A DNA stretch of 37,951 nt. Source: Lachnospiraceae bacterium (lineage in GTDB: Bacteria; Bacillota; Clostridia; Lachnospirales; Lachnospiraceae). Below are positions 9,947-37,805 of this stretch, in pieces; within the stretch, counting starts at the first letter, position 1, and each line of letters begins with the position of its first letter. Under the pieces are notes generated by a model. That model made no database searches. It was not told the origin of the DNA and worked only from the letters and a program-made list of their open reading frames with translations. The stretch lies in the NCBI GenBank assembly GCA_021770245.1, contig JAETRI010000033.1, positions 1-37,951 of the forward strand, in the 5' to 3' direction. The translations under genes were made by a program, and so were the position numbers.

Positions 9947-10031
9947 TAGATTGAAAAAATAAGCCCGATGGCTTCTTTTCAACCGCAATTTGTGCCGCAG
10001 GCGGCCCTAATACGAATCGCAGGGGATACGG
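9947..10031 (+). repeat. Interspersed palindromic element, modules A-B
   Basis: Module A is a long AT-rich hairpin (GATTGAAAAAATAAGCC, loop, GGCTTCTTTTCAACC). Module B (TTTGTGCCGCAGGCGGCC) and the tail AATCGCAGG follow in fixed order. The same pair recurs at 23086, 23891, 33147 and, in changed sequence but the same folds, at 32111, 36591 and 37744. Confidence 0.75.
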
Positions 10032-10132
10032 CATGAAAGAATTAATATTTCCCAAACAAAATCTAAATGTTATAAAAACATTCAACAGGTATGATGCATC
10101 TATCAATAACAAACAAAAAGGAGAATAACAGT

Positions 10133-10405
10133 ATGGCAAAATCAAAGCTCGTGGAGGCAAATGAAAAAATCGCAGAGGGAGTAGTCGGCGGCTACAAAAG
10201 GATCGAAGAAGGGGTGGTCGGCGGTTACAAGAAGATTGAGGAAGGGGCAGTGGGAGGCTTCAATAAGATTGCCGATAAGTTTGTGGACAATTTTCTTACG
10301 AAAGAGGGGGAGCCGGTAGAAGAGGCAAAGGAACGGATTGCGGCAGAACAGAAGGAAAGAGAAAAAAAGAATATTGCCAAACGGGAGAAACAGGAGCAGA
10401 AGTAG
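10133..10405 (+). CDS. Small protein with 11-residue repeats
   Basis: A 90-residue protein whose first half is three imperfect 11-residue repeats of the type KI-x-EGVVGGY-K (about residues 11-44), followed by KFVDNFLTKEGEPVEEAKERI and a highly charged lysine/glutamate tail. Eleven-residue periodicity makes an amphipathic helix that can lie on a membrane or lipid surface; that role is inference. I recall similar small proteins in Firmicutes without a known function. SD AAAAGGAG stands 8 bases before ATG 10133; the frame extends upstream to 10091 but without an SD. It precedes a small membrane protein gene and may share its transcript. Confidence 0.75.
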   Translation: MAKSKLVEANEKIAEGVVGGYKRIEEGVVGGYKKIEEGAVGGFNKIADKFVDNFLTKEGEPVEEAKERIAAEQKEREKKNIAKREKQEQK

Positions 10406-10482
10406 GAAGCAGCAGCAAAAGAGAGGCGACGGAAGACAGAAGTCTCCGGACCGGAGGAGAGAAGAAAGGCAGGATTTGCATT

Positions 10483-10851
10483 ATGAAAAAGAGTACGTTT
10501 GCAGCGATGATTTTGGGAACTGTCGGAGGGATTTTATTTGCACTGGGAATGTGTATGGCTTTGATACCGGAGTGGAACGCGTTTCGGCCGGGCATTATTA
10601 TGGGAGTAATCGGGGCGGCCGTGCTGCTGGCTACGGTGTTTGTGTGGAGGAGAATGGAGAACAAGGCTCCGGTCAAGCTGTCCGGTAAGACAATCGGCGC
10701 AATACTGATCGGCGTCGTCGGGGCACTGCTGTTGGGCGTTGGCATGTGTCTGACAATGGTCTGGAGCAATATGGCAGTCGGCATCATAGTCGGCATTGTG
10801 GGAATCATGGCTCTCCTTTGCCTGATTCCTTTTATCAAAGGATTGAAGTAA
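10483..10851 (+). CDS. Small four-helix membrane protein with internal duplication
   Basis: A 122-residue integral membrane protein with four hydrophobic segments (about 5-27, 37-54, 70-90, 95-117). The halves resemble each other: FAAMILGTVGGILFALGMCMAL against GAILIGVVGALLLGVGMCLTM, then a W and a second helix rich in GIIxGVIG/GIIVGIVG, so it arose by duplication of a two-helix unit. I do not recognise a named family. The preceding SD is weak (GGCAGGATTTGC). It lies 77 bases after the 11-residue-repeat protein, and a two-gene envelope operon is plausible. Confidence 0.7.
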   Translation: MKKSTFAAMILGTVGGILFALGMCMALIPEWNAFRPGIIMGVIGAAVLLATVFVWRRMENKAPVKLSGKTIGAILIGVVGALLLGVGMCLTMVWSNMAVGIIVGIVGIMALLCLIPFIKGLK

Positions 10852-10959
10852 CAGGAAGGGAGACAGTAGGAATGCAGCATAGAAAAAGGGGCGGCTTGAA
10901 GGCGGCCTCTTTTTTGAGTCTGCCGGTTTATCAATCCGGATAAAGCCCCGCTCCTGATT

Positions 10960-11100
10960 CGGCAGAAGTGCAGGCGCCCAAATCCGAATTGCAGGCGCGA
11001 AATCGTATTCGTGAATTTTGTATCTCACCGCCGCAGAGAACGCGGCATGTCGATAGGGGCAGACCGCCCTGTCGCGTAAACGCTCCGGAATGGGGATTAA
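10960..11100 (+). repeat. Interspersed palindromic element, modules C-D-E
   Basis: A degenerate C part (AATTGCAGGCGCGAAATCG), then D at 11028-11050 (CCGCAGAGAACGCGGCATG), then E at 11057-11100 (core GTCGCGTAAACGCTCCGGAA followed by TGGGGATTA). The D-E order also occurs on the minus strand at 21961-22037. It ends about 87 bases before the start of the next operon. Confidence 0.7.
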
Positions 11101-11103
11101 TAT

Positions 11104-11157
11104 AACTTTAACAAAACAGAAACAAAACTGAAATGAAGACATGATATATGTTAAAAT
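11104..11157 (+). promoter_or_regulatory. Probable response-regulator binding site and promoter
   Basis: ACAAAAC occurs at 11111-11117 and 11122-11128, exactly 11 bases apart, with a weaker third repeat (GAAATGA) one turn later. TAAAAT at about 11152-11157 can serve as -10. Eleven-base direct repeats in front of an operon holding its own OmpR-type regulator suggest autoregulation. Confidence 0.5.
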
Positions 11158-11186
11158 AATAAAGTACGAAAGCGTGGAGATACGGC

Positions 11187-12113
11187 ATGGACAGGGAACG
11201 GGTGAAAAAAAGATTGAAAAAAATATTCGGGAAAGTTTTCTTTCTGCCGCCCGTTCCCACTCTGCTGATTTCCGTTCCGGCTTATGCGCTCGTTATTTAT
11301 GTGCTGGCGGAAGAAGACGTGGAGCCGGCCATGGCATATGCAGCGTATTTCCTGTCGGCATACGCATTGATTATTACGGTAACAGGAATTGCGGGTTTCG
11401 TGCGTTTTGTGCGTCAGGGAGTGAATCAACATCCCTTTATAAAGAAAATGCTGAATGTTCCGCTGATCAGCAAATATCTGAAGGAAGCGACGTTCCGGGC
11501 AGAGGCATCTTTGTATCAGGGATTTTTTATTAATCTCTTATATGCAGGCGTAAAGCTGTTTTCGGGGATCCTTTACGGATCCGTTTGGTTTCTGACGCTG
11601 GCGGCATATTATATCCTGCTTGCCCTCATGCGTGCCTCGCTTCTTCATTATGTAAGGAAGGATGGGAAAAGCAAGGTTTCCGAATGGCGCAGGTATCGGT
11701 TATGCGGGATTATTCTATTGTTTATGAATGTCGCATTGGCGGGCATCATTCTTTTGGTGGTATACGAGAACAGCGGGTTTGAATATCCGGGGGTGCTGAT
11801 CTACGTCATGGCGATGTACACATTTTATGCGGCGATCACGGCTGTCCGGAATGTGATAAAGTTCGGGAGATACGGGAGCCCTGTGATGTCTGCGGCAAAG
11901 GTGATCAGTCTGACGGCAGCGCTGGTATCCATGCTCTCCCTGACGACAGCCATGCTGACCCAGTTCGACGCTGCAGGCGGCCCTGTGTTCCGCCGGGTCA
12001 TGACGGCCTCCACAGGAGCGGGGATAAGCGTCATTGTGCTTGGAATGGCGGTTTTTATGATCGTAAGGTCAACGAAGCAGATGAGACATATCAGGCAGGA
12101 AAAGGAGATGTAG
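11187..12113 (+). CDS. Polytopic membrane protein encoded with a two-component system
   Basis: A 308-residue protein with a basic cytoplasmic N-terminus (MDRERVKKRLKKIFGK) and about eight hydrophobic segments spread to residue 290 (first VPTLLISVPAYALVIYVLA, last AGISVIVLGMAVFMIV), ending in a charged tail. No catalytic or transport signature is visible. It starts the operon, lies 3 bases before the response regulator, and the operon ends with another membrane protein of unknown role, so it probably acts in the sensing or in the response of this system. SD GGAG precedes ATG 11187 by 8 bases. Confidence 0.75.
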   Translation: MDRERVKKRLKKIFGKVFFLPPVPTLLISVPAYALVIYVLAEEDVEPAMAYAAYFLSAYALIITVTGIAGFVRFVRQGVNQHPFIKKMLNVPLISKYLKEATFRAEASLYQGFFINLLYAGVKLFSGILYGSVWFLTLAAYYILLALMRASLLHYVRKDGKSKVSEWRRYRLCGIILLFMNVALAGIILLVVYENSGFEYPGVLIYVMAMYTFYAAITAVRNVIKFGRYGSPVMSAAKVISLTAALVSMLSLTTAMLTQFDAAGGPVFRRVMTASTGAGISVIVLGMAVFMIVRSTKQMRHIRQEKEM

Positions 12114-12116
12114 CAT

Positions 12117-12788
12117 ATGATTCATATTCTTATAGTGGAAGATGACCCAAAACTGACCCAGATTGTATGTACTTACCTAAACGACAGCGGGTTCCGTGCA
12201 AAGGGATGTCTGGGCGCAAAGGAAGCTTATGAGGAGATGTATAACCATATCTATGATTTGATTATTTCTGACATTATGATGCCTGAGATTGACGGCTTTG
12301 AATTTGCCCGGACGGTCAGGGAGGTGAACAGGACAATCCCTATCCTGTTTATGTCGGCAAAGGATGACCTGCCTTCCAAACAGAAGGGGTTCCGGCTCGG
12401 GATTGACGATTACATGGTAAAGCCCATTGAACTGGATGAGCTTCTTTGGCGCATAAGGGCGCTTTTGCGCAGGGCGAATATTGAGACGGAAAGGAAGATA
12501 ACCGTGGGAAATCTGGTACTGGATGCGGACGGAATGAGCGCGGAAATCGACGGGGAGGAAATCGGTCTTACCACGAGGGAGTTTAACATCATTTACAAGC
12601 TTCTGTCATATCCGAAAAAGACGTTTTCGAGAGCGCAGCTCATGGATGAGTTCTGGAGCGTGGAAAGCGATGCGAGCCTGCGTGCGGTGGATGTGTATGT
12701 GACCAAGCTGCGGGATAAGCTCTCTGCCTGTGACGGGTTTCAGATCGTGACGGTGAGGGGGCTGGGATATAAGGCGGTGCTGCAATGA
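12117..12788 (+). CDS. OmpR-family response regulator
   Basis: A 223-residue cytoplasmic DNA-binding response regulator. The receiver domain shows the acidic pocket (IVEDD, E8-D9), phosphoacceptor D52 (IISDIMMPEIDG), the conserved Ser (FMSAKDD) and the Lys of DDYMVKP. The winged-helix domain fills residues about 128-222 (LTTREFNIIYKLLSYP, then DVYVTKLRDKL and VRGLGYKA). It is intact, unlike the two regulator remnants at 2-3.4 kb. Its last codons overlap the kinase start by ATGA, so the two are translationally coupled. Likely targets are its own operon (11-base repeats at 11111-11128) and perhaps other envelope genes. Confidence 0.92.
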   Translation: MIHILIVEDDPKLTQIVCTYLNDSGFRAKGCLGAKEAYEEMYNHIYDLIISDIMMPEIDGFEFARTVREVNRTIPILFMSAKDDLPSKQKGFRLGIDDYMVKPIELDELLWRIRALLRRANIETERKITVGNLVLDADGMSAEIDGEEIGLTTREFNIIYKLLSYPKKTFSRAQLMDEFWSVESDASLRAVDVYVTKLRDKLSACDGFQIVTVRGLGYKAVLQ

Positions 12789-13891
12789 AAATAAAAGAGA
12801 ACCTCTTTCCGCCGTCCCTGTTTGCCATTTATTTGGGAACTCTGTTCCTGATGTCCGGTATCCACACCGGATTGCTTGTGTTTATGAACAGGGCGCACTT
12901 CGGTGAACTGGCGCAGACAATGATTCCCATGGGATATTGGGGGATCGTGGCAGTGGGGCTTACCCTGTTCACAAGGCAGAAAATGAGGAGTACCTATGAA
13001 GAGCCTCTGCATAAAATGGCGGAAGCCACCAGGAAGGTGTCGGAGGGGGACTTTTCCGTATATGTTCCCACGATCCATACGGCGGATAAATTGGATTATC
13101 TGGACGTTATGATCCTTGATTTTAATAAGATGGTGGAGGAGCTGGGAAGCATCGAGACGTTGAAGACGGATTTTATTTCCAACGTGTCCCATGAGATGAA
13201 AACGCCGATCGCCATTATCAAAAATTACGCGGAGCTGCTTTCGGCAGACCGGATCGAGGACGGACAGAGAAAAGAGTATGCGCGATCCGTGGAAAACGCC
13301 GCCACGAGGCTTTCCGAGCTGATCAGTAATATCCTGAAACTGAACAAACTGGAGAACCAGAAGATCGTGTCGGAAATGAAAAACTATGATATATGTAGGC
13401 AGCTGTGCGAATGCATTCTGCAGTTTGAGGATATGTGGGATGAAAAAGAAATCGAACTGGAAACGGAAATCGAGGATGCGGCAATGGTAAAGGCGGATGA
13501 AAGTCTTATGGAACTGGTGTGGAATAACCTGATCAGCAATGCGATCAAGTTTACGGAGCCGGGAGGACGCGTTACGGTCCACCAGACATCGGACGGGGAT
13601 TGCATCAGGATAGCGGTGGCTGATACGGGCTGCGGCATGAGCAGGGAGAGTATGGACCGTATTTTCGATAAGTTTTACCAGGGAGATACATCCCATTCAA
13701 GAGAAGGAAACGGTCTTGGCCTCGCACTGGTAAAGCGTGTGCTGGAACTGATGGACGGGGATATCCAGGTCATCAGCGAGGAGGGAGCGGGAAGCACCTT
13801 TACGGTCACGCTGCCTGCGGCAGGCGGTCCCAATAGTTTTGACGGCAGACCGCCCCGTCGCGTAAACGCTTTGGAACGGGGATTCGAATGA
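12785..13891 (+). CDS. Membrane sensor histidine kinase with a repeat-encoded C-terminal tail
   Basis: A 368-residue kinase that should phosphorylate the preceding regulator. Two membrane helices (about 11-33 and 48-64) enclose a very short outer loop, so it probably senses within the membrane or through a partner, as intramembrane-sensing kinases do. A HAMP-like linker precedes the H-box VSHEMKTP (H136), then N-box NNLISNAIKF, G1 DTGCGM, F-box IFDKFYQG and G2 GLGLAL. The domain ends at FTVTLPA. The last about 20 residues (SFDGRPPRRVNALERGFE) are encoded by interspersed module E and are not a kinase feature; the same peptide is encoded by a mini-ORF at 21951-22016. The stop overlaps an ATG (ATGA) at 13888. 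Confidence 0.92.
   Translation: MKIKENLFPPSLFAIYLGTLFLMSGIHTGLLVFMNRAHFGELAQTMIPMGYWGIVAVGLTLFTRQKMRSTYEEPLHKMAEATRKVSEGDFSVYVPTIHTADKLDYLDVMILDFNKMVEELGSIETLKTDFISNVSHEMKTPIAIIKNYAELLSADRIEDGQRKEYARSVENAATRLSELISNILKLNKLENQKIVSEMKNYDICRQLCECILQFEDMWDEKEIELETEIEDAAMVKADESLMELVWNNLISNAIKFTEPGGRVTVHQTSDGDCIRIAVADTGCGMSRESMDRIFDKFYQGDTSHSREGNGLGLALVKRVLELMDGDIQVISEEGAGSTFTVTLPAAGGPNSFDGRPPRRVNALERGFE
13841..13887 (+). repeat. Module E repeat inside the 3' end of the kinase gene
   Basis: GGCAGACCGCCCCGTCGCG, then TAAACGCTTTGGAACGGGG, is the module E seen at 11057-11100, 21961-21999 (minus) and 32182-32250. Here it is coding sequence, supplies the kinase stop, and leads into the next gene. Confidence 0.8.
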
Positions 13892-13914
13892 GGAGCAAAA
13901 GGAGGCGCGGGGAC

Positions 13915-14469: not shown

Positions 14470-14475
14470 GGGCCG

Positions 14476-17999: not shown

Positions 18000-18061
18000 T
18001 ATGCGCCGCATAAAGAAAGCAATTTTCCAAAGAGCCTGCTTTGCCGGTTGGGCGATTCCTC

Positions 18062-18100
18062 ATCGTGCCGCCGCAAAGGGCGCGGCATGGAAGGATTGGC
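18062..18100 (+). repeat. Module D repeat in antisense position
   Basis: GCCGCAAAGGGCGCGGCATG followed by GAAGGATTGGC. It is the module that elsewhere ends at start codons (27421, 33272), but here it points into the 3' end of the LacI gene on the other strand, so this copy has no gene to serve. Confidence 0.7.
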
Positions 18101-20757: not shown

Positions 20758-21954
20758 TCATGTATGACGTTTTATAACTTCCTCGATAAACGCGCAGGCC
20801 TGCGCTGCGCCTTTGCAGGCCTTTAGATCCTGCCCTGCCCGGCGGGCGCATCCGGCATAAGAGGGATCGGACAAAAGCGTCATGACGGCCTGCCGGATCC
20901 GTTTGGCTGATGCATGCTTCACACGGATGCCGGCCCCCAGCTGCCGCACGCGCAGGGCCACGGCGGACTCTTCGGAATGCTGGGGGAAGAGGAGCATGGG
21001 AACGCCGTAGAAAAGGCTTTCATTGACGCTGTTCATCCCACAGTGGGTGATAAATACGTCGGCCTGGGAAAGCACCTTCGGTTGATCTACAAAAGGAAAG
21101 GCGAATACGTTGGAGGGAAGTTCTCCCAGCAGGGAAAGATCCGTGTTTCTGCCTGCGGACAGAAGAACGTCGCACTCCAGTTCCCAAAGCCCCCGGATAC
21201 ACTGCCGGTAAAACCGGACATTGTTGTTCAGAACCGTTCCCAGGGCGACATAGACCAGGGGACGTTTGGGGGCGGAGGGCCGGGAAGCGGACGCGCCGGA
21301 AAAAGCAGGCTCGTTCAGACAGGCGGGGCCGACAAAGACATACCGGTCGGAAAAGGTTTCCGCCATGGGCTGGAACTGCCGGGATGTGTAGACGATGGTA
21401 TCCGTTTCGTTGTCGTTTTCAAGGATGGACAGGAGGCTGGCGGAATCATATCCGTGCTGCTTTAGAAGCTGCATTTTCCCGTTAATGCGGGGGATGCCGA
21501 GAAGCATACGGAACATTTCCCCGGGACCTCTTTTCATCAGACGGGCCGTATGACGGTTAAAGGCCATGGTGGTGGTGGAACAGACCAGAGGGATCCGATA
21601 TCTCTTGGCAAAAAGCTTCCCCCAGAAACAGACGGAATCCGAGACGATGCAGTCCGGCCGGAAGGCTTTGATATCGTTTTCCACCAGTTCCTCCAGACGG
21701 AGCGTGGTATCCGCGACCATTTCCACAAGGGAGGCGAAATCCCTGCCCACCCTGCGGTCCAGATCTTTCGGGGCCGGCGGAAGGAATTCTTCACAGGAGA
21801 CGTAACAGGCTCCGGCCTCCCGGATCTTGTCGGCAAATTCGGGGAAAGAGTAATAACGTACCTTGTGCCCTCCGGCGACGAGCCCGCGCACCACGGGAAT
21901 CGTGGGGGTCGTATGGCCGTATGCCGGGATGCAGAAAAACATAATATTGCTCAT
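20758..21954 (-). CDS. GT1-family glycosyltransferase (macrolide/flavonoid UGT type)
   Basis: A 398-residue GT-B fold enzyme that should move a sugar from a nucleotide sugar to a small hydrophobic acceptor. N-terminal domain: FFCIPAYGHTTPTIPVVRGL with the catalytic His in the GH motif, then KAFRPDCIVSDSVCFWG. C-terminal donor-binding domain: VYVALGTVLNNN, FVDQPKVLSQADVFITHCGMNSVNES (HCGxNS signature) and GVPMLLFPQHSEES. This type includes macrolide-inactivating and antibiotic- or lipid-glycosylating enzymes; which one cannot be told. ATG 21954 overlaps the stop of a 21-codon leader ORF (ATGA) and takes its SD (GGAG) from interspersed module E. The AbrB regulator lies just upstream in the same direction. 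Confidence 0.88.
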   Translation of the reverse strand: MSNIMFFCIPAYGHTTPTIPVVRGLVAGGHKVRYYSFPEFADKIREAGACYVSCEEFLPPAPKDLDRRVGRDFASLVEMVADTTLRLEELVENDIKAFRPDCIVSDSVCFWGKLFAKRYRIPLVCSTTTMAFNRHTARLMKRGPGEMFRMLLGIPRINGKMQLLKQHGYDSASLLSILENDNETDTIVYTSRQFQPMAETFSDRYVFVGPACLNEPAFSGASASRPSAPKRPLVYVALGTVLNNNVRFYRQCIRGLWELECDVLLSAGRNTDLSLLGELPSNVFAFPFVDQPKVLSQADVFITHCGMNSVNESLFYGVPMLLFPQHSEESAVALRVRQLGAGIRVKHASAKRIRQAVMTLLSDPSYAGCARRAGQDLKACKGAAQACAFIEEVIKRHT

Positions 21955-22016
21955 AAAAATCTCCATTCCGGAGCGCTTACGCGACGAGGCGATCTGCCAT
22001 CAAAGCTATCTGACAT
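21951..22016 (-). CDS. 21-residue leader peptide coupled to the glycosyltransferase, encoded by modules D-E
   Basis: ATG 22014-22016 starts directly after the D hairpin stem; AGGA in the loop stands 6 bases before it. The frame reads M-S-D, then SFDGRSPRRVSAPEWRFL and TGA at 21951-21953, which overlaps the ATG of the glycosyltransferase by four bases (ATGA). The histidine kinase at 12785-13891 ends in the nearly identical peptide SFDGRPPRRVNALERGFE, also followed by an ATGA overlap. Translation of this mini-ORF would carry ribosomes onto the glycosyltransferase start. Whether the peptide itself matters is unknown; the coupling is inferred from the overlap. Confidence 0.5.
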   Translation of the reverse strand: MSDSFDGRSPRRVSAPEWRFL

Positions 22017-22037
22017 GCCGCGTCCTGTGCGGCTCCT
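21961..22037 (-). repeat. Interspersed element, modules D-E
   Basis: On the minus strand: CCGCACAGGACGCGGCATG (D) then GGCAGATCGCCTCGTCGCG and TAAGCGCTCCGGAATGGAG (E). It fills the whole gap between the AbrB gene and the glycosyltransferase. Confidence 0.8.
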
Positions 22038-23035: not shown

Positions 23036-23085
23036 CTCCCCGGCTTACGGATCCGCAGGCCCGCTTTGGCAGGAAAATGAGAACA

Positions 23086-23200
23086 GATTGAACAATAAGC
23101 CTGATGGCTTATTATTCAATCACAGTGTGTGCCGCAGGCGGCTCAAAGTAAATCGCAGATGAGAAATCGCAGACCGTTCGATTTCGCGTCTCTTGCCCGT
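23086..23200 (+). repeat. Interspersed element, modules A-B-C, inside an operon
   Basis: A: GATTGAACAATAAGCC, loop, GGCTTATTATTCAATC (note the paired change C-G to keep the stem). B: GTGTGCCGCAGGCGGCTC. C: AATCGCAGATGAGAAATCGC followed by a partial complementary arm. It ends 25 bases before the next start codon. Confidence 0.8.
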
Positions 23201-23224: not shown

Positions 23225-23704
23225 ATGATTCGAAAGAAATGGGATGAAAGACAGAAGACGGATATGCTGCGCGCCGAGCATTATGCTTTTCGGACGATGT
23301 GGTGGATTCTGGCAGCGGGCCTGACCTATCAGGGATATATCCTCGCGGCCCCTTTTTCGGAAATGAAATGGGAACTGGCGGCCTTTGCGGCCGGCAGCGT
23401 AGTGGCCCTGACGCTGTCCATGCGAAAGGGGATGTGGGACAGCAGGATCAAATTTACCGTTCCAAACTGCCTGCGGCTCAGTGCCGTCTTTACCGCGGCA
23501 TTCGGTGCCTTATACGCCATAGGCAAATACAGACAGTACGAGGCCTGCAGGGAAGACGTGGCAGGCGTGCTTCTGCCGATTACGCTCGTCTTTTGCGCGG
23601 CCGTTTTTGTCCTGTGCTTTTTGACATTGTATCTGACAGGGAGTTATACCAGCAGGCGGGAGAAAAAGATCGAAAAGGAACTGGGGATGGAGGAGGAAGA
23701 GTAG
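23225..23704 (+). CDS. Four-helix membrane protein paired with the XRE regulator
   Basis: A 159-residue protein: a charged N-terminus (MIRKKWDERQKTDMLRAEHY), four hydrophobic segments (about 25-45, 50-66, 88-106, 118-140) and a charged C-terminal coiled tail (SRREKKIEKELGMEEEE). It resembles the DUF3796/DUF6773-type membrane proteins found behind YozG-like regulators; this is from recall of the genomic pattern. Function unknown, possibly envelope sensing for the regulator. AAAGGAG stands 6 bases before ATG 23225; a frame running upstream to 23129 goes through the repeat and is rejected. Confidence 0.78.
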   Translation: MIRKKWDERQKTDMLRAEHYAFRTMWWILAAGLTYQGYILAAPFSEMKWELAAFAAGSVVALTLSMRKGMWDSRIKFTVPNCLRLSAVFTAAFGALYAIGKYRQYEACREDVAGVLLPITLVFCAAVFVLCFLTLYLTGSYTSRREKKIEKELGMEEEE

Positions 23705-23890
23705 ACGGGAAGGCGTGCTGGAAGTGGGTATGAGACATATTCAATTTGCCATAGAAGAAAAAATCTTTTTCGCTTTTTATTTCACTCAAACTATTATACA
23801 GGCGTTTCCCTTTCCGAGTGGCTTACAGAGAAAAATTTTGACCCTTTATTTCCTATTTTGGAATAATGTATCTGATAGAAGAAAGAGGCC

Positions 23891-23972
23891 TAGATTGAAA
23901 AATAAGCCCGATGGCTTATTTTTTAATCGCAATTTGTGCCGCAGGCGGCCCAAATGGAATCGCAGATGGGAG
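23891..23972 (+). repeat. Interspersed element, modules A-B
   Basis: A: GATTGAAAAATAAGCC, loop, GGCTTATTTTTTAATC; B: TTTGTGCCGCAGGCGGCCC; tail GGAATCGCAG. It ends at the SD of the MFS fragment (GGGAGCAAATATG). Bases 23705-23890 hold nothing else. Confidence 0.8.
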
Positions 23973-23977
23973 CAAAT

Positions 23978-24211
23978 ATGAACAAACTTTTCAAACGCGA
24001 TTTTACAATGGTTGTTATCGGCCAGATAATCTCACTTTTCGGCAACGCCATACTGCGGTTTGCTTTGCCGCTCTGCCTGCTTCGCGAGACGGATTCTGCG
24101 TCTCTATTCGGAGCGGTAACAGCCTGCGCATTTATTCCAATGGTGATTTTTTGGCAGTTTCGATGTACTCCAAAAAGGTTTTTGCGATTCTTGAAAAGGA
24201 ATCCACCGTAA
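23978..24211 (+). pseudogene. N-terminal fragment of an MFS transporter
   Basis: It reads MNKLFKRDFTMVVIGQIISLFGNAILRF and continues into a second helix (SLFGAVTACAFIPMVIF), the standard start of macrolide-efflux-like MFS proteins. After VIF, where the loop between helices 2 and 3 should follow, the sequence changes to WQFRCTPKRFLRFLKRNPP and stops. About 320 residues are missing, so it is a deletion relic. The 3' flank (24212-24310) has no readable transporter sequence. Confidence 0.8.
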
Positions 24212-24346: not shown

Positions 24347-24373
24347 AGACCAAAATAAAGAATACGGACAGAT

Positions 24374-24540
24374 GGGAGCAAGGTTGAAAGGAAAGCGCTT
24401 TCAACCTCCCTGATTTGAGTGCGTGCTTCGCACACAGGCGGGAGCAAGGTTGAAAGGAAAGCGCTTTCAACCTCCCTGATTTGAGTGCGTGCTTCGCACG
24501 CAGGCGGGAGCAAGGTTGAAAGGAAAGCGCTTTCAACCGG
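24374..24540 (+). repeat. Tandem array, 66-bp unit, two and a half copies
   Basis: Units start with GGGAGCAAGG at 24374, 24440 and 24506. Each holds two hairpins: GGTTGAAAG/CTTTCAACC (module A-like) and GCGTGC-TTC-GCACGC. The copies differ at single bases (CACACAGG against CACGCAGG). The third copy passes directly into a B module. Confidence 0.85.
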
Positions 24541-24635
24541 CATTTGTGCCGCAGGAGCCCCAAATGGAATCACGGACATGAAATTGCATACGCGATTTCA
24601 CGCCGCGGTGCCGCAAAGGGCGCGGCACGAAAGGG
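24541..24635 (+). repeat. Interspersed element, modules B-C-D
   Basis: CATTTGTGCCGCAGGAGCCC (B), AATCACGG with a GAAATTGCATACGCGATTTC hairpin (C) and GCCGCAAAGGGCGCGGCACG (D, with ACG in place of ATG). It continues the tandem array without a gap. Confidence 0.7.
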
Positions 24636-27420: not shown

Positions 27421-27456
27421 ACGGCGCAGAAGACGCGGCATGAAAGGATTAGCGTA
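27421..27456 (+). repeat. Module D repeat ending at the acyltransferase start
   Basis: GCGCAGAAGACGCGGCATG followed by AAAGGATTAGCGTA and the ATG of the next gene. Its own ATG opens a five-codon ORF (M-K-G-L-A) whose TAA overlaps that ATG (TAATG). AAAGGA doubles as SD of the acyltransferase. Confidence 0.65.
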
Positions 27457-28533
27457 ATGGCCAAAAAACGGGTTCAATATCTGGATATTGTAAAAGCGGT
27501 TTCCATCTTCCTCATTGTGTTCGTTCATTTTGTCCTGCTTTCGGAGACAATCCCTGCGAACTTTTGCATGATGGCCTGTCTGGCGGGTGTTCCCATGTTT
27601 TTCATGGTAAACGGCGCCCTTCTTTTTTCCAGGCCTCTGGATCTTGGGAAACACATAAAAAAGACGCTCATGGTCTATCTGGTCCTGGTCGTATGGCGGC
27701 TTTTCTACCTGCCCATTGTCGGCCCGGCCTGCCAGGTGGAGGTGCTGTCCTTCGGAAAAGGAAGGCTTTTGGCCTATCTGTTCGCCTTCGGGAACCTGGA
27801 GGGGCTTCAGATCGGGCATCTGTGGTTCATGGAAGCGCTCCTGGCCGTATATGTGGTCTTTCCCCTCTTTCGGATCGCCTTTGACCGGGATGGGGGGGAC
27901 GGGCTTCTTCTTTTCTTCGCTGTTTACGCTCTGACGATGACCAACGGAATGACGGGGCTGCGGGTGGCGCTGGACGCCCTGGCAGGAGCCGGTATTGCGG
28001 CCGGACTCGACACGGCGGGGCTGGAGGTACTCAATCCCTTCGGGATGTATGCCAATATGCTGGGTTTTTTCCTGCTGGGGGCCTGGATCCATCTGTCCTG
28101 GGCCGGGGGAAGGAACAGAAAGAAATGGAGGCTGCCGGGGCTGGCCGCGGGCCTTTTGGGGCTTACGGGAATGTGGGCCGTGAAATGGTATACCAGCGGC
28201 AGCCCGGCCTGGGACGGGAGTTACCTGGATCAGGGCTATCGGCATATCCCCGTTATTTTCATGGCCGTCGGCTTTTTCCTCTTTTTCAGAAGCCTTACGA
28301 TCCGCAATCCGTTCGCGGCCAGGCTGGTGGAGGCCATAGCCTCCCGGACGCTGGGGATCTATTATCTGCACTGGATCTTCGGCTGGCTCTTTGTTCCCCG
28401 CCTCGCCCTGGTATTTTCCGGCTACAATGTGGGAACCAATATCCTGCGGACCTTTGCGCAGCTGATTCCGGCGTTCGCGCTGACTCTTCTGCTGGAGCGG
28501 ATTCCCGTGGTAAGGCATCTGGTGACGGGATAA
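27457..28533 (+). CDS. Acyltransferase 3 family membrane protein
   Basis: A 358-residue integral membrane enzyme of the OafA/NodX type, which moves acyl groups (often acetyl) from the cytoplasm onto sugars of surface polymers. It begins QYLDIVKAVSIFLIVFVHF, the typical first helix with the catalytic His, followed by about nine further hydrophobic segments; PMFFMVNGALLF and GHLWFMEALLAVYVVFPLF are family landmarks. The last helices (LGIYYLHWIFGWLFVPRLAL) match as well. The acceptor is unknown. It lies upstream of a nucleotidyltransferase and GalE, which make sugar nucleotides, so surface-polysaccharide modification is a reasonable guess. The start is coupled to a module D mini-ORF. Confidence 0.88.
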   Translation: MAKKRVQYLDIVKAVSIFLIVFVHFVLLSETIPANFCMMACLAGVPMFFMVNGALLFSRPLDLGKHIKKTLMVYLVLVVWRLFYLPIVGPACQVEVLSFGKGRLLAYLFAFGNLEGLQIGHLWFMEALLAVYVVFPLFRIAFDRDGGDGLLLFFAVYALTMTNGMTGLRVALDALAGAGIAAGLDTAGLEVLNPFGMYANMLGFFLLGAWIHLSWAGGRNRKKWRLPGLAAGLLGLTGMWAVKWYTSGSPAWDGSYLDQGYRHIPVIFMAVGFFLFFRSLTIRNPFAARLVEAIASRTLGIYYLHWIFGWLFVPRLALVFSGYNVGTNILRTFAQLIPAFALTLLLERIPVVRHLVTG

Positions 28534-28608: not shown

Positions 28609-28690
28609 GGTCCCCTCTGTGATCATCACGCGCCGCTGGGACGGGCAGAGGTGGCGCAGAGGCCGCAGAGCCGTTCATGCGTTTGTCGTG
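28609..28690 (-). repeat. Module F repeat, nearly full copy
   Basis: Minus strand GACAAACGCATGAACGGCTC, CTGCCCGTCCCAGCGGCG and CGTGATGATCAC, then GGGGACC; it aligns along about 75 bases with 37640-37713 and 31921-31998. It lies just before the promoter of the next operon. Confidence 0.75.
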
Positions 28691-30958: not shown

Positions 30959-30994
30959 ATGCCCGTTTCCGGGCGGACAGACCGTCCGGGAGGG

Positions 30995-31845: not shown

Positions 31846-31998
31846 GGCAGACGCAGGAATGGCAGGCACAGGCGGCAGGAGCAAGAGCGGCCCGTCAGCC
31901 CGACTCGCCCCCTTTTTCGCGGCACGGCAGACGCATGAAAGGCCCTGCGGCCCCTGAGCCACCCCTGCCCGGCTCGCCCCGCGTGATGATCCATCGGG
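31846..31998 (+). repeat. Module F repeat, one partial and one full copy in tandem
   Basis: CGCGGCACGGCAGACGCA occurs at about 31840 and again at 31918; the second copy continues with GAAAGGCCCTGCGGCCCC, CCCCTGCCCGGC and CGTGATGATCCATCGGGG. Aligns with 28609-28690 (minus) and 37640-37713. Confidence 0.7.
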
Positions 31999-32110
31999 GC
32001 TCGTAAAGATGCACAAAGAAAGCGTCTGATTTTTGTCACGGGTTACGCGTTTAACCCTTGCCTGTTTATCCTGAACCGTTTTATCATAATTACAACTGCT
32101 GAGACGAAGA

Positions 32111-32250
32111 TCGGTTGAAAAATGCCCTGCGGCCTTTTTTCAACCCGGCAGTTTGTGCCGGAGCGTCACAAATTGTTATGATGGCAGACGGGAATTTTCT
32201 TCCGTAAATGCTCGTCGCCCGTCGCGAAAACGCTCCGGAATGTGAGGTTA
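32111..32250 (+). repeat. Interspersed element, modules A-B-E, divergent copy
   Basis: A: GGTTGAAAAATGCCC, loop, GGCCTTTTTTCAACC, a stem whose bases differ from other copies on both sides at once. B: TTTGTGCCGGAGCGTCACAA. E: GTCGCGAAAACGCTCCGGAA at 32221-32240. The E frame is open through to the acetyltransferase gene (RRENAPECEVK in that frame). Confidence 0.7.
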
Positions 32251-32287
32251 AGATTAAAATTTTCAATCTTACGGATTTGGGCCTATT

Positions 32288-32313: not shown

Positions 32314-32333
32314 AAAGGCATGGGGAGAAAAAT

Positions 32334-33146
32334 ATGGAAAAAAGGGCTCTGGTAACTCCGGAGGATATGAAAACCGCTTTCAGGGAGGCAGGCGTCCAAA
32401 AAGGCCAGGCGATCATGGTGCATACATCGCTGAGCAGCCTGGGCTATGTGTGCGGTGGCGCACAGACGGTTATTGAAGCATTGATTGGGAGTGTCGGTGA
32501 TGAGGGTACGATTATGATGCCGACACAGTCATGGAAAAATTTAGATCCCGCGGCAGGCGTCTATTGGCAGGAACCGGAGGAATGGTGGCCTGTGATACGT
32601 GAATACATACCTGCTTATGACAAACGGATTACGCCGACAAATACGATGGGCGCCGTAGCGGAAATGTTCCGTCAATGGCCGGGGACACTTAGAAGCGATC
32701 ATCCCGCAAGATCGGTAGCGGCATGGGGACGTTATGCACGGTTTTTGACAGAAAACCATGACCTGTCCGATATTTTTGGTGACAGTTCGCCTGTCGGCAG
32801 GCTGTATGAGCTTGACGGGTATGTTCTGCTGATCGGCGTTGGTTATGACAAGAACACCTCCCTTCATCTGGCGGATGCAAGGGCCGAATATCCAAACAAG
32901 CATACGGTTATAGAAAGCAGCGCCGTACAGTTTGACGGGCAGCGGGTATGGAAATCCTATGAAACATTGGCCGTAGACGGAGAGGATTTTCAGGCAATCG
33001 GAGAGGCGTTTGAGCGGACGGGGCAGGTGCGGCAGGTACCCTTAGGAAACGGTATCCTTTCCATGATGCGCCAAAGGGCATTGGTAGATTTTGCCGTGAA
33101 GTGGATAGAAGAAAACAGAAAGCCTATGGACGACGGGAGACCTTAG
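32334..33146 (+). CDS. AAC(3)-family N-acetyltransferase
   Basis: A 270-residue protein of the antibiotic N-acetyltransferase (AAC(3)/YokD) family, whose known members acetylate the 3-amino group of aminoglycosides from acetyl-CoA. Landmarks: MVHTSLSSLGYVCGGAQTVI, GTIMMPTQSW, PTNTMGAVAEMFRQWPG, RSDHPARSVAAWG and the active-site region DSSPVGRLYELDGYVLLIGVGYDKNTSLHLAD. The family also holds housekeeping-like members in Firmicutes without proven resistance, so calling it a resistance gene would go too far. GGGGAG precedes ATG 32334. The open frame reaches back to 32208 through module E and hairpins; that extension is probably not protein. Confidence 0.88.
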   Translation: MEKRALVTPEDMKTAFREAGVQKGQAIMVHTSLSSLGYVCGGAQTVIEALIGSVGDEGTIMMPTQSWKNLDPAAGVYWQEPEEWWPVIREYIPAYDKRITPTNTMGAVAEMFRQWPGTLRSDHPARSVAAWGRYARFLTENHDLSDIFGDSSPVGRLYELDGYVLLIGVGYDKNTSLHLADARAEYPNKHTVIESSAVQFDGQRVWKSYETLAVDGEDFQAIGEAFERTGQVRQVPLGNGILSMMRQRALVDFAVKWIEENRKPMDDGRP

Positions 33147-33303
33147 ATTGAAAAATAAGCCTGACGGCTTATTTTTCAATCGATATTTGTGCCGCAGGCG
33201 GCACAAAACGAATCGCAGATGAGAAATCGCATCCGCGATTTCTCAGACATGAATCAAAGATTCATGTTGCACTGCCGCAAAGGACGCGGCATGGAGGATT
33301 AGC
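33147..33303 (+). repeat. Interspersed element, complete A-B-C-D series
   Basis: A: GATTGAAAAATAAGCC, loop, GGCTTATTTTTCAATC. B: TTTGTGCCGCAGGCGGCACA. C: AATCGCAGATGAGAAATCGC with GCGATTTCTC as its return arm, then ATGAATC/GATTCAT. D: GCCGCAAAGGACGCGGCATG. It fills the whole gap: it begins where the acetyltransferase stops and ends at the transporter start. D's ATG opens M-E-D-stop, with TAG one base before the ATG at 33304. Confidence 0.85.
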
Positions 33304-34518
33304 ATGGATAAAAGTTATAACCGGACACTGTATGCCTGTTTTACCGGATGTATTGTGCAGGCGATCGTAAACAATTTCGTCCCGCTTCTTTTTCTGACTT
33401 TCCATAGCGCGTATGGCATTCCGATGACACAGATTACACTGCTCATCACATTTAATTTTGGCTTACAGCTGTTAGTGGATATTCTGTCGGTAGCCTTTGT
33501 CGACAGGATAGGCTATCGTGCATCCATGGTGATTGCCCATATCTGTGCAGCGGCAGGCCTCATATTCCTGGCCGTCCTGCCTGACATGTTCGGAAACGCG
33601 TTCCCGGGGCTTCTGATTTCCGTTGCCGTATATGCCGTGGGCGGCGGACTGCTGGAGGTATTGGTCAGCCCTATCGTAGAAGCCTGTCCCACAGAAAATA
33701 AGGAGAAAGCCATGAGCCTGCTGCATTCCTTTTACTGTTGGGGGCATATGGCGGTCGTGCTTGTATCGACGGCCTTTTTTTACCTGTTTGGCATAGAAAA
33801 CTGGAAGATGATGGCTTGCATTTGGGCGGTTATCCCTTTTGCCAATATGATTCTGTTCACAAAGGTACCTATCGCTTCTTTGATAGAGGAAGGGGAAAAG
33901 GGGCTGACAATCGGACAGCTTTTTCGCAGGAAGATATTCTGGGTGCTGATGATCATGATGGTGTGTGCCGGAGCAAGCGAACAGGCAGTCAGCCAGTGGG
34001 CATCCGCCTTCGCGGAAACAGGGCTGCACGTTGGCAAGACAATAGGGGATCTGGCGGGACCGATGCTGTTCGCATTTTTGATGGGGAGTGCCAGAGCCTT
34101 CTACGGAAAATACGGAGAACGGATTGATTTGGACCATTTTATGATCGGCAGCAGTATTTTGTGCGTCATTGCATATCTATGCATTTCGCTTGTGCCAAGC
34201 CCGATCGTTGGTTTTATCGGCTGTGCCCTGTGCGGCCTGTCCGTCGGCATCATGTGGCCGGGGATATTCAGCAAGGCTGCGGCTTGGGATGCCAAAGGCG
34301 GCACCGCCATGTTTGCGTTACTTGCATTAGCGGGGGATGTTGGATGTGCGGGGGGACCTACCGTAGTCGGAATGGTTTCCGGTGCTTTAGACAATAATCT
34401 TAAAATGGGTATTCTGACAGGAATGATATTTCCTGTACTTTTATTGACAGGGATATATCTGTGCCGGACATGGAATAGAAAGGCGCAGACCTGCTCCCCG
34501 GGGAGAACTTTCCGCTAA
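33304..34518 (+). CDS. MFS transporter
   Basis: A 404-residue 12-helix permease. First helices TLYACFTGCIVQAIVNNFVPLLF; loop 2-3 motif DRIGYRASMVIAH (the MFS A-motif region), and a second half starting near FWVLMIMMVCAGASEQ. The overall type resembles sugar/fucose-permease-like MFS proteins (AMSLLHSFYCWGHMAVV and GLSVGIMWPGIFS), so a small-molecule proton symporter or exporter is likely, substrate unknown. The downstream end is marked by a good terminator. The start is set by module D, whose GGAGGAT serves as SD; ATG 33304 is the only sensible start. Confidence 0.88.
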   Translation: MDKSYNRTLYACFTGCIVQAIVNNFVPLLFLTFHSAYGIPMTQITLLITFNFGLQLLVDILSVAFVDRIGYRASMVIAHICAAAGLIFLAVLPDMFGNAFPGLLISVAVYAVGGGLLEVLVSPIVEACPTENKEKAMSLLHSFYCWGHMAVVLVSTAFFYLFGIENWKMMACIWAVIPFANMILFTKVPIASLIEEGEKGLTIGQLFRRKIFWVLMIMMVCAGASEQAVSQWASAFAETGLHVGKTIGDLAGPMLFAFLMGSARAFYGKYGERIDLDHFMIGSSILCVIAYLCISLVPSPIVGFIGCALCGLSVGIMWPGIFSKAAAWDAKGGTAMFALLALAGDVGCAGGPTVVGMVSGALDNNLKMGILTGMIFPVLLLTGIYLCRTWNRKAQTCSPGRTFR

Positions 34519-34541
34519 AAGGCCGGGGGAGAGGCCTTTTT
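34517..34541 (+). terminator. Rho-independent terminator of the MFS gene
   Basis: AAAAGGCC, 8-base loop, GGCCTTTTT. It overlaps the stop codon region. Confidence 0.8.
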
Positions 34542-34580
34542 GGCGGATCGGTTTACGGTAAGATTTGCGGAAAACCCGCT

Positions 34581-35231: not shown

Positions 35232-35344
35232 AAGCTACCTCCATACCGCGGTTTTTGCGTTACTGTGACTTGAATGCAAAAATTATAATATGTAAAAATA
35301 ATAATATATAATATGGTATTAAAAACCACTTGTTGCATATGACA

Positions 35345-35373
35345 ATACTACACCTTATCATTTTCTGTGTCAA
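35345..35373 (-). promoter_or_regulatory. Promoter of the hemolysin III gene
   Basis: Minus strand TTGACA (35368-35373), 17 bases, TAGTAT (35345-35350). Confidence 0.7.
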
Positions 35374-35487
35374 CGAAAAATATTCTTAAGAAAATCCGGA
35401 TCCTTCCTGTGCGCCCAGCGTCCGGAAGCCTGCGGGGGATGAAATACTGCATTTTTCATGCCTTCGCCGGGACACCTTCCGGACATG

Positions 35488-35525
35488 AAAAGGGCTGCCG
35501 CACCGTTTCGGTACGGCAGCCCTTT
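35488..35525. terminator. Bidirectional terminator
   Basis: AAAGGGCTGCCG with CGGCAGCCCTTT, plus CCG/CGG inside, and a TTTC loop. It serves the small gene read from the right. Bases 35526-35697 show only a short coding-looking stretch noted separately. Confidence 0.75.
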
Positions 35526-35697
35526 GGCAGCAGGCTTTATGATATGCATTGCGGCCCTTTTATTACCGCTTATATGGCTTACGGGGAACCGGCGGCCTCC
35601 CATTTCCCGGGCTGATAGGAAGCGCAGATCCGCTCGATCTGCCTTAGGCCCACATTTAGAGTCTCTAATCCGCCTTTTGCACAGCGCAGATGCGGCC

Positions 35698-35964
35698 TTA
35701 ATCCTCTTCAATCACCTGTATTTCCAGATAATCAAAATCAATCTGCTCTATGAAGTTATCCTGGTGAAAACGCGCTTTGTTATGGCGTTTGAATTCATTG
35801 ACGGTGGCATCCAGCCAGATGGGTTTTCCCAGATCAAACCGGATGCAGATCTCATCCAGAGCGTGAAAAACCTTATGTGTGCGCGTGTCCCGGGAATCGT
35901 CACAGATGACGGTATCCCGTAGCATACGGTTTTCTTTCCATATTTTGGCCCATAAACGAAACAT
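35698..35964 (-). CDS. Conserved small protein of unknown function
   Basis: An 88-residue soluble protein, beginning MFRLWAKIWKENRMLRDTVI and ending in a charged strand-like region (FIEQIDFDYLEIQVIEED). CDDSRDTRTHKVFHALDEI and FDLGKPIWLDATVNEFKRH are evenly mixed helix/strand sequence with conserved-looking polar residues. I recall near-identical short proteins in many Lachnospiraceae genomes, without an assigned function. GGAGG stands 8 bases before ATG 35964, so I prefer it to ATG 35970, which is only 2 bases from the SD. Single gene, followed by a strong terminator. Confidence 0.72.
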   Translation of the reverse strand: MFRLWAKIWKENRMLRDTVICDDSRDTRTHKVFHALDEICIRFDLGKPIWLDATVNEFKRHNKARFHQDNFIEQIDFDYLEIQVIEED

Positions 35965-36401
35965 GGTCATTTCCTCCTCTTCTTCGCTCCTGCGAACAGA
36001 TCCGCGGGCGCCGGCATCTGCTCCAAAGTATAGCGGATTTGGATGACGAAGTAAAGAATGTTATGCGATAAGGCCCATCAGACGCATAGGCGGAAAAGCA
36101 GATACGATACGGTTTCGTTCCTGCGTTTGTCCTGATCCGCCCCCTAAAGGAGTAATGGCTTATGGACGGAATTTTTGTGGCAAATTGTTATAAAAGAGAG
36201 AAAGGAATCGGAAGAACGAGATTATATTTTGTGTGATCTTACAAAAAGAAAAGGGAAGGAATAAAATTTTTGTAAAACATACACATTGCACATTCATATG
36301 TGCTATAATAACAATGGCAGGGGAAAGAAAACCCGTCCGAAATCAAAATTTATGGAACTGAAGGATGTGCAGATTTGCAGGGGAACTTCCAAACTTGCTG
36401 T

Positions 36402-36590
36402 TGGCGGCATATCGCAAGCTTCGTTTGCGATATGCAGAGGGTGAAGTTTGAAACTTTGTTTCAAACTCTTTATTGGCGGCAGTATCGCAAGCTCCGCTTG
36501 CGATATGCAGAGGGTGAAGTTTGAAACTTTGTTTCAAACTCTTTATTGGCGGCAGTATCGCAAGCTCCGCTTGCGATATGCAAAGGGTGA
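36402..36590 (+). repeat. Tandem array, 73-bp unit, about two and a half copies
   Basis: ATCGCAAGC recurs at 36411, 36484 and 36557 (period 73). Each unit has a hairpin ATATCGCAAG/TTGCGATAT and a second one GTTTGAAAC/GTTTCAAAC. The third unit runs into an A-B element. The first copy differs at several bases, the later two are almost identical. Bases 35965-36400 contain a partial module F (about 36115-36135, minus) but no gene. Confidence 0.85.
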
Positions 36591-36640
36591 AGATTGAAAA
36601 TGAAAAATTTTCAATCCGGGATTTGTGCCGGATAACATGG
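36591..36640 (+). repeat. Interspersed element, modules A-B, shortened
   Basis: GATTGAAAATGAAAAATTTTCAATC (stem GATTGAAAA/TTTTCAATC) is followed by GGGATTTGTGCCGGAT. It joins the 73-bp array directly, as the 66-bp array joins a B module at 24540. Confidence 0.7.
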
Positions 36641-36708
36641 AAGCGTTACCTTATGCATAAAATCCCCTGAATGGAATGCCGCCTGGCGGCGGCAGAATGA
36701 GAGGAAAA

Positions 36709-37353
36709 ATGGAATTTGTACCGGATAAGGAAAACCAGGTGGACAGCTGGCAGGAGGTTACCCTGGTCTATCATGCAGCTCTGAAGCAGATCCATACGAA
36801 GCTGGATATCCTCAACGATGAATTCCAGCATGTACACCGCTATAATCCGATTGAACATATTAAATACCGTATGAAAACGTCGGAGAGCATTGTGAAGAAA
36901 CTCAAAAGACATGGTTACGAGTCCACCATTGAGAACATGGTAAAATATGTGAACGATATTGCAGGCATTCGGGTAATCTGTTCTTTTACGTCAGATATTT
37001 ATCGGATAGCGGATATGATCAGGAATCAAAACGATATCCGGATTATTGCAATTAAGGATTACATCAAGCATCCCAAGCCCAGCGGCTACAAGAGCTATCA
37101 TATGCTGGTCTCCACCCCGGTTTTCCTGTCGGACCGGATTGTCGATGTGAAGGTGGAAATCCAGATACGAACGGTGGCCATGGATTTCTGGGCAAGCCTG
37201 GAGCACAAAATCAATTATAAATTTGAAGGAAAGGCGCCTGAATATATTCGGGCCGAACTGGTAGAATGCGCGAGGATGGTTGCGGAACTGGACGCGAGAA
37301 TGCTGGCGCTGAATGAGGAAATCAGGGATATCAACGAAGCGTGGGATGCATAA
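36709..37353 (+). CDS. Small alarmone synthetase, RelQ/YjbM-like GTP pyrophosphokinase
   Basis: A 214-residue single-domain (p)ppGpp synthetase that transfers pyrophosphate from ATP to GDP/GTP, without the hydrolase and regulatory domains of Rel. The RelA/SpoT synthetase core is intact: KYRMKTSESIVKKLKRHGYE, NDIAGIRVICSF, IKHPKPSGYKSYHMLV and VEIQIRTVAMDFWASLEHKI (catalytic Glu). C-terminal helices permit the tetramer typical of RelQ. I place the start at ATG 36709 (MEFVPDKE); AGAGG precedes it by 4 bases, and an in-frame ATG at 36697 would add M-R-G-K exactly as at 28791. A hairpin GCCGCC/GGCGGC lies just upstream. Single gene with two terminators after it. Confidence 0.93.
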   Translation: MEFVPDKENQVDSWQEVTLVYHAALKQIHTKLDILNDEFQHVHRYNPIEHIKYRMKTSESIVKKLKRHGYESTIENMVKYVNDIAGIRVICSFTSDIYRIADMIRNQNDIRIIAIKDYIKHPKPSGYKSYHMLVSTPVFLSDRIVDVKVEIQIRTVAMDFWASLEHKINYKFEGKAPEYIRAELVECARMVAELDARMLALNEEIRDINEAWDA

Positions 37354-37382
37354 ACGTGAATCATAAACAGGCGGAATAAAAC

Positions 37383-37420
37383 TCCCGGAGCGCCGGTCCA
37401 TCGGCCGCTCCGGGAATGCT
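37383..37420 (+). terminator. Terminator after the alarmone synthetase
   Basis: TCCCGGAGCG with CGCTCCGGGA, extended by CCG/CGG inside, then ATGCTTT. Confidence 0.7.
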
Positions 37421-37444
37421 TTGTCCCGCCTGAAAATGAGGAGT

Positions 37445-37472
37445 GCCCCGGCACTAAAAGCACCGGGGCTAT
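37445..37472. terminator. Second hairpin
   Basis: GCCCCGG with CCGGGGC and an 11-base loop, flanked by CTATT; a backup terminator. Confidence 0.5.
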
Positions 37473-37639
37473 TATGAAAAAATTTATCTATGTCTCTCAT
37501 CTGTTTTGTTAAGGAAAGTATAACAACTAAATATGAATAAAATATGAATAAGATGTAAAATCATAGTTAATCATTCCAAAAAGAGGAGGCTTTTCCGTTA
37601 AAAGCAGGACAAAATACACAAAAGAAGGCATCGATTCCG

Positions 37640-37713
37640 CAGGACAAACACATGAACAGCCCTGCACCGCCCCTGCCCGTCCCCACGGCGTGTGATGATC
37701 CATCGGGGACCCG
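37640..37713 (+). repeat. Module F repeat, full copy
   Basis: GGACAAACACATGAACAGCC, CTGCCCGTCCCCACGGCG, TGATGATCCATCGGGGACC. AGAGGAGG at about 37583 precedes it but no open frame follows. Confidence 0.75.
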
Positions 37714-37743
37714 CTTTCGCTCAGCCAAAAACGCAGCGGTACT

Positions 37744-37805
37744 AGATAGAAAAATGACCTACGGTCATTTTTCTATCGGGAATTTGTGCTATCGCACAAA
37801 GTTCC
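37744..37805 (+). repeat. Interspersed element, modules A-B, strongly divergent copy
   Basis: A: GATAGAAAAATGACC, loop TAC, GGTCATTTTTCTATC, a perfect 15-bp stem of different sequence from other copies. B: GAATTTGTGC-TATC-GCACAAAGTTC. Both stems are preserved by paired changes. Confidence 0.8.

Follow-up and report, generated by a model that had tools for sequence, protein, structure and literature searches.

Hairpin cassettes at gene starts of a Lachnospiraceae contig

The 37,951-nucleotide (nt) stretch of contig JAETRI010000033.1 from a Lachnospiraceae bacterium (GCA_021770245.1; the whole stretch is called the window here) carries short hairpin cassettes in the spaces between its genes, described in an original prediction from the letters of the window as six modules, A to F, in fixed order. 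The complete copy, a type-1 element on the forward strand at 33143..33303, fills the gap from the end of the preceding frame (33146) to the ATG of the next gene (33304). It consists of hairpin A (33146-33181), hairpin B (33186-33207), C1 (33221-33244), C2 (33247-33267), hairpin D (33274-33290) and a Shine-Dalgarno (SD) sequence, GGAGG (33293-33297), all on the forward strand. Here, we provide evidence that such cassettes probably belong to a family of non-autonomous mobile translation-initiation leaders, found in many gut Lachnospiraceae, whose usual landing place would be between SD and start codon, in sense orientation.

Two related types can be told apart. Type 1 is a repeat of about 163 nt made up of the A and B hairpins, C1, C2, the D hairpin and an SD, and its ends are sharp in an alignment of 30 copies, with (T)AG-RTTGAAAAATAAGCC on the left and commonly GCGGCATGGAGGATTAG on the right (other right ends occur), beyond which the flanks are unrelated. 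Type 2, carried by relatives, measures about 130-150 nt and comprises hairpin A (GTGTGAAAAATAAGCYYGATRGCTTATTTTTCACAC, or GATTG..CAATC), hairpin B (TTTGTGCCGGAGCGTCACAAA), a variable stem and the right end CGTCGC..ACGCTCCGGAATGGAGATTANNATG. The general layout is a hairpin A starting NN-NTG, a hairpin B with the loop CCGGAGCG, the variable stem and, in the 3' part, a strand CGCTCCGG complementary to the B loop, followed by AATGGAG as SD. Terminal inverted repeats were not seen when the left end NN-NTGAAAAAT and the right end CGGAATGGAG were compared by eye, the two not being complementary. As judged from the aligned copies, module D is the type-1 right end and module E the type-2 right end, and the window has pieces of both. 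The predicted order thus stands for A-B-C-D, with the correction that there are two related types (A-B-C-D and A-B-variable stem-E) in place of a single series and that F is a separate repeat family, part of neither.

An unbiased repeat search together with profile models recovered the repeats at the sites named in the original prediction, the match of the complete copy spanning 33143-33307 and the weakest being those at 36591 and 37744 (A-B remnants at 36585..36648 and 37741..37806, forward strand, each with E about 4e-4). Several copies adjoin start codons as predicted. On the reverse strand, a type-2 right half (module E, 21952..22012) ends at the start codon at 21954 of a 398-codon frame, has an inner ATG at 21966 in frame with that start codon, and is overlapped by a D-type right end (22001..22035, also reverse). 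On the forward strand, a type-1 A-B-C with an altered right end (23080..23193) precedes the gene ATG at 23225, a type-1 A-B (23888..23977, profile match to 24004) precedes the ATG at 23978, a D-type right end (27422..27456) lies immediately before the ATG at 27457, and a type-2 right half (13832..13890) that overlaps the 3' end of an upstream open frame reaches the gene ATG at 13888. Further forward-strand copies are a type-1 A-B (9947..10034), a degraded C-D (10970..11054), a type-2 right end (E, 11064..11103), a D-type right end (18055..18097), a type-1 B to D after a tandem array (24531..24635) and a near-complete type-2 element (32108..32252) with A, the B loop CCGGAGCGT and the right end CGCTCCGGAATG, after which no start codon directly follows. 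The statement that cassettes often end at start codons therefore holds, but "always" would be wrong: those at 9947, 10960, 24541, 32111 and 37744 do not run directly into a gene start, and the match at 36591 has no recognisable right end, a 225-codon frame starting at 36676, about 28 nt beyond it. Tandem arrays of 66-nt and 73-nt hairpin units lie at 24368-24565 and 36410-36628, directly before cassette remnants.

Distribution of the element

Searched with a 171-nt query, the source genome (4.28 megabases, 237 contigs) yielded 41 long matches of about 110-171 nt at 81-100% identity, window copy included, a count far above chance, with 40 of 265 first-look candidates scored; the same query also gave short matches, nearly all of them single hairpins on the opposite strand. 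A 21-mer from hairpin B occurs in at least 119 stretches of named genomes, and among the matches listed the titles were mostly Lachnospiraceae, Acetatifactor, Roseburia, Lachnospira and Eisenbergiella, with few other labels. With up to two mismatches allowed, it placed type 2 in 35 of 397 sampled genomes of the family, the source genome included, and in 33 of 334 genera (reversed-pattern control, 0), with a maximum of 44 places in a single family genome. A phylum-wide sample gave one genome in 398, that of the window, and one match of the reversed control. These counts miss other loop variants, since genome G011 has type-1-like copies yet no match to the 21-mer, and loop variation is under-sampled among the loci analysed below, most of which were fetched by the exact 21-mer. 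Outside the family, genome G031 (another family of the same order) has seven matches to the type-1 query, and three unannotated faecal phage records match one third of it; viral contigs held no exact match to the B 21-mer and plasmids no match to the type-1 query.

Insertion polymorphism and target duplication

Comparison of orthologous sites shows insertion polymorphism together with placement between SD and ATG. The clearest case is a filled site on contig 2 of genome G007 that is empty on contig 27 of G008, with flanks 99% identical. The empty site reads ..GACAGGGAGGAAGAATGGCAG and the filled one ..GACAGGGAGGAAGATTGAAAA, the element, then CGGCATGGAGGGAAGAATGGCAG; the native SD precedes the element, the start codon follows it and both junctions carry GGAA (or GGAAGA). 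Among 14 further sites, six have base-resolved empty orthologues (locus L307 in three genomes, L290 in four, L294 in six, L296 in one, L299 in one and L300 in two), and at six of the seven sites resolved in all, native SD and ATG stand on either side of the element. These seven are drawn from 19 typed sites, the rest giving split matches, none, or low-identity ones that were left out; L239, and in additional genomes L289, L295 and L296, gave unbroken matches of low identity that may represent more empty sites and were left uncounted. On these alignments, gain of the element is best argued at the G007/G008 site, L307, L294 and L296.

The ten bases at the left and right ends, usable in 57 of 76 copies, agree with each other at 0.575, compared with 0.502 +/- 0.014 in shuffled pairings (0/1000 reaching it). 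Counted from the A of ATGGAG, the excess falls mainly on positions 6-8 (0.54, 0.39 and 0.70 versus 0.38, 0.26 and 0.40), is slight at positions 4 and 9 and absent from the rest; shifting the register by one base also gives a value above its null (0.456 versus 0.419). Because the excess falls just after ATGGAG, this motif is part of the element and the bases that follow are duplicated target. The duplication is about 4 nt long, clear at three of the seven resolved sites (L036, L296, L294) and ambiguous at L307 and L290. Longer deviant stretches are repeated on both sides at L296 (GGCAGGAGGAAG) and L245 (AAGGAGGAAA), where the right junction may resolve within the homology between ATGGAG and the SD.

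Such right junctions, which carry the target's own deviant SD, favour an explanation without a dedicated transposase, in which the cassette, having SD-like sequence on either side, spreads from the SD region of one gene to that of another through template switching or recombination over short homology. The same can be said of the Y1 transposase, absent from seven of 13 genomes of the genus, all seven of which match the element query. Homology of 6-10 bp is, however, short for efficient recombination, left and right ends differ in most copies (10 of 57 agree at nine or more of ten positions, with 3.7 expected), and the fixed ends suggest termini defined by an enzyme. We regard this route as unlikely.

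Placement before start codons

A right end was recognised at 105 of 121 places holding the B 21-mer and at the other 16 was not. A start codon follows within 5-31 nt in 101 of the 105, opening a frame of at least 50 codons or one open to the contig end, and in 79 it stands exactly 12 nt after ..GGA. At this 12-nt spacing (79/105, type 2), the gene's ATG shares its frame with one inside the element (ATGGAGATTANN), which may act as an alternative start. In a subset of the 121 defined by a stricter pattern, 62 of 72 elements have precisely 6 nt from GGAG to ATG and four have 5, compared with a spacing of 6 in 29 of 208 element-free genes with GGAG from the same loci, whose commonest class is 7 (36 genes) and whose classes 5 to 10 hold 16-36 each. 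All 20 further sites from G007 and G008, chosen by element match and amounting to 17 different genes because three sites are common to both genomes, lead into the ATG of a frame of at least 60 codons. Ten downstream genes picked by hand belong to ten different Pfam families, including methionyl-tRNA synthetase, HrcA, ScpA and a metal ATPase. Gene starts in all these tests were called by simple open-frame rules instead of a gene caller. In the source genome, a start lies within about 36 nt of the right end in 13 of 15 type-2 copies and on the outward 5' side in three of 15; random positions put to the same test gave 1705 of 4000, an uninformative control because random positions fall inside genes.

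A pattern of this kind could also arise if ordinary repeats of the BOX or REP kind inserted irrespective of genes and selection kept those copies whose SD fits the start codon. Type-1 copies of the source genome often lie away from starts (17/52), and degraded halves are common in the window, both as such an explanation would have it. Against this, 119 of 170 copies retain a native SD immediately before the element, the spacing within elements (62/72 at 6) is much narrower than that of native genes, spread over 5 to 10, and the 20 sites sampled by element match were all at gene starts. Selective retention of randomly placed repeats is, in our judgement, improbable.

A probable upstream frame and a predicted pseudoknot

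The ten bases before hairpin A hold GGAG, GAGG, AGGA or GGGG in those 119 of 170 copies, compared with 15-26 of 170 for each of nine equally long windows placed farther upstream. Hairpin A has an NTG at its base 3, and of the 91 copies with a GGAG, 65 place it at a spacing of 5-7 from this NTG. This NTG is TTG in 94 copies, GTG in 65, ATG in eight and CTG in three (n = 170; the search pattern imposed the TG and left the N free, and the copies are related and do not represent 170 independent events). The native SD is thus apparently left to a tiny upstream reading frame. Among 122 copies, 43 keep the frame set by the NTG open beyond the start of the gene; in the remainder its stop lies at a median of 68 nt, close to where hairpin B ends. 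The two alternative frames remain open that far in one and five copies. NTG and gene start share a frame in 37 of the 122, and this frame is uninterrupted in 15 of those 37. These counts support an upstream coding frame and do not prove it, since stops in both alternative frames come from the sequence of the hairpin.

Between hairpin B and the new SD, the eight bases of the B loop were compared with the eight before (A/C)ATGGAG in 188 of 249 aligned rows, which hold 31 distinct combinations. They pair at 6.84 of 8 positions, compared with 6.55 +/- 0.07 for shuffled combinations (0/2000 reach the observed value) and 2.8-3.7 for slid registers; retrieval of most loci with a single loop sequence raises the shuffled value. 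Variants changed on both sides, TCTGAGCG/CGCTCAGA and CCGAAGCA/TGCTTCGG, occur beside CCGGAGCG/CGCTCCGG. Covariation of the B loop with the strand 5' of the new SD is shown in these alignments for type 2, which corresponds to a predicted pseudoknot. The duplex of loop and strand, computed as two free strands, comes to -18.8 kcal/mol, and a competing hairpin, CUCC-GGAAU-GGAG (-4.9 kcal/mol), would mask the new SD.

A covarying pseudoknot 5' of the SD, as in several translational riboswitches, speaks for a vertically inherited cis-regulatory RNA of the riboswitch or ribosomal-protein leader type, duplicated along with genes, but this reading is hardly credible here, since the ten downstream genes examined are unrelated, some species have tens of copies per genome and orthologous genes lack the element at seven resolved sites, which refutes it unless the copies share a function or ligand.

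A probable mobile leader for translation initiation

We consider a family of non-autonomous mobile leaders the likely explanation of these results. We propose that, upon insertion, the native SD would drive the NTG of hairpin A as the start of a short upstream frame, ending after hairpin B or continuing, and that the transcribed leader would fold into a pseudoknot directly 5' of the new SD, which the competing CUCC/GGAG hairpin could mask. Ribosomes on the upstream frame would melt hairpin B and so tune initiation of the downstream gene, and the enzyme that moves the element would presumably be supplied in trans. We give even weight to a stronger version, in which the integration target is the translation-initiation region itself and tens of unrelated genes have been rewired onto one control module of pseudoknot plus upstream frame. 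On that version, an insertion would be translated through and not disruptive, because the element's own start codon replaces that of the gene relative to the native SD and its own SD lies a fixed 6 nt before the ATG.

Several observations count against a mobile leader of this kind. One of the seven resolved sites, L290, lost its native SD, which was replaced on insertion, and L299 and L300 show no visible duplication. Other relatives carry 65-100 nt between the flanks of L290 and L300, some other insert in the same place, at the L197 site, orthologues that lack A-B have a sequence resembling a right end in front of the ATG, and the left flank of L298 is itself an element end; sites are reused, therefore, and not every difference in presence is one clean gain. 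In the source genome, a gene start lies within about 36 nt of only 35 of 52 type-1 right ends (outward 5' side, 8/52), and type-1 rows pair at only 5-6 of 8 positions in the pseudoknot register. The upstream frame could be a by-product, given that stops in the two alternative frames stem from TGAAAAATAAG itself and that the search pattern imposed the TG. No autonomous partner was found, and neither the Y1 transposase nor a retron reverse transcriptase tracks the element.

The original suggestion of mobile translation-initiation leaders adopted as 5' untranslated regions is nevertheless borne out by insertion polymorphism, SD-ATG placement, sense orientation, the SD of the element and the unrelated downstream genes. 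A lack of orientation or distance bias relative to start codons, named beforehand as the refuting outcome, did not occur, with 79 of 105 copies at one exact distance. The left-hand SD, the probable upstream frame and the pseudoknot had been missed, and the finding stands, stronger than first stated. If the leaders are mobile in this way, a bacterial mobile element would target ribosome-binding sites and leave the gene translatable, providing a route for whole regulatory 5' leaders to spread between unrelated genes. It would become testable how new translational control arises, what factor could recognise an SD with its start codon in DNA (or mRNA) and why core genes, that of methionyl-tRNA synthetase for example, tolerate such insertions, and the element would offer a compact natural test case for the coupling of a short upstream frame, a pseudoknot and an SD.

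Candidate movers and comparison with known systems

Two candidates for the moving enzyme were rejected. The Y1 (RAYT) transposase had no match in the source genome (96% complete) and is absent from the seven genus genomes mentioned above, some of which are incomplete. For a retron reverse transcriptase (Ec107-like, PADLOC), an apparent link within the genus was not upheld by wider comparison. The enzyme is present in G001, G002 and G012, where no element match was found (20/22, 18/18 and 20/27 candidates scored), and is absent from the element-bearing G011; of 19 element-bearing genomes searched beyond the genus, one has it at E<=1e-15 (G291, 32% identity). Kinship by alignment was limited to G004, G005, G006 and G009 (74-82% identity), matches of the same extent in G003, G008 and G010 being left out. 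The reverse transcriptase loci L355-L358 (G009, G006, G005 and G004, respectively) share a conserved upstream non-coding stretch (L358:1050-1330, 176-248 nt aligned), in which no kinship with the element was seen by eye, and those of G004 and G006 have the same downstream gene.

Literature searches in one open-access collection found no prior description of such an element. As in BOX elements of Streptococcus pneumoniae, we find short, modular, many-copy interspersed repeats with strong predicted RNA structure and short target duplications. In passages of the BOX study (Croucher 2011, PMC3049150), those repeats have terminal inverted repeats and are over-represented between convergent genes, whereas the present element lies between SD and start codon, carries an SD and showed no terminal inverted repeats. 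With REP sequences and REPINs it shares palindromic, intergenic repeats in many copies; unlike them, it sits at start codons, ordinary REPs usually lying at 3' ends according to the original prediction, and the Y1 transposase was not found in the source genome. Escherichia coli REPs are discussed by distance from the upstream stop codon in passages of RepRanger (PMC12306157).

Two successive long hairpins in the Rfam family TD-2 (RF03162) resemble A and B. Identity with TD-2 was rejected, as five of 24 loci scanned scored 38-46 bits (best 46.1), below the cut-off of 48.7 and on the opposite strand. No Rfam family reached its gathering score in the window, and a looser limit brought no relevant match. 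No paper on TD-2 was found in the open-access collection searched, and PMC2864571 mentions neither TD-1 nor TD-2.

Non-autonomous elements of the IS200/IS605 type have hairpins near their ends and no terminal inverted repeats, and in both respects our element is alike; the difference lies in the Y1 transposase, lacking in seven of 13 genus genomes, all seven with elements and some of them incomplete. The preQ1, SAM-V and SAM/SAH riboswitches are translational pseudoknot leaders with the pseudoknot next to the SD. A covarying pseudoknot adjoining the SD is shared with them (type 2; type 1 pairs at 5-6 of 8), and mobility, many copies and unrelated genes set the element apart; the related downstream genes expected of a riboswitch or ribosomal-protein leader were not found, the ten picked genes representing ten families. 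By analogy, a non-autonomous, BOX-like repeat would here carry a leader that acts as translational pseudoknot leaders do.

Other features

A T-box-like leader at L032:2326-2595 scored 77 bits, below its Rfam cut-off of 93. In the window, module F (GGACAAACGCATGAA; CAGGACAAACGCATGAA..) has copies at 9784, 19230, 22281, 22349 (reverse strand), 28661 (reverse strand), 31834, 31914 and 37640, some of which share longer flanks (28642-28690 and 31923-31971, 86% complementary). G+C content is 40-47% in positions 1-10000 and 48-58% beyond, and the first part is perhaps of different origin. Two 80-nt stretches, 2583-2662 and 3432-3511, are 83% identical and possibly represent shared promoter regions. 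At the contig end, a 34-nt inverted repeat with arms 30 nt apart (37847-37944) might be the end of a mobile element.

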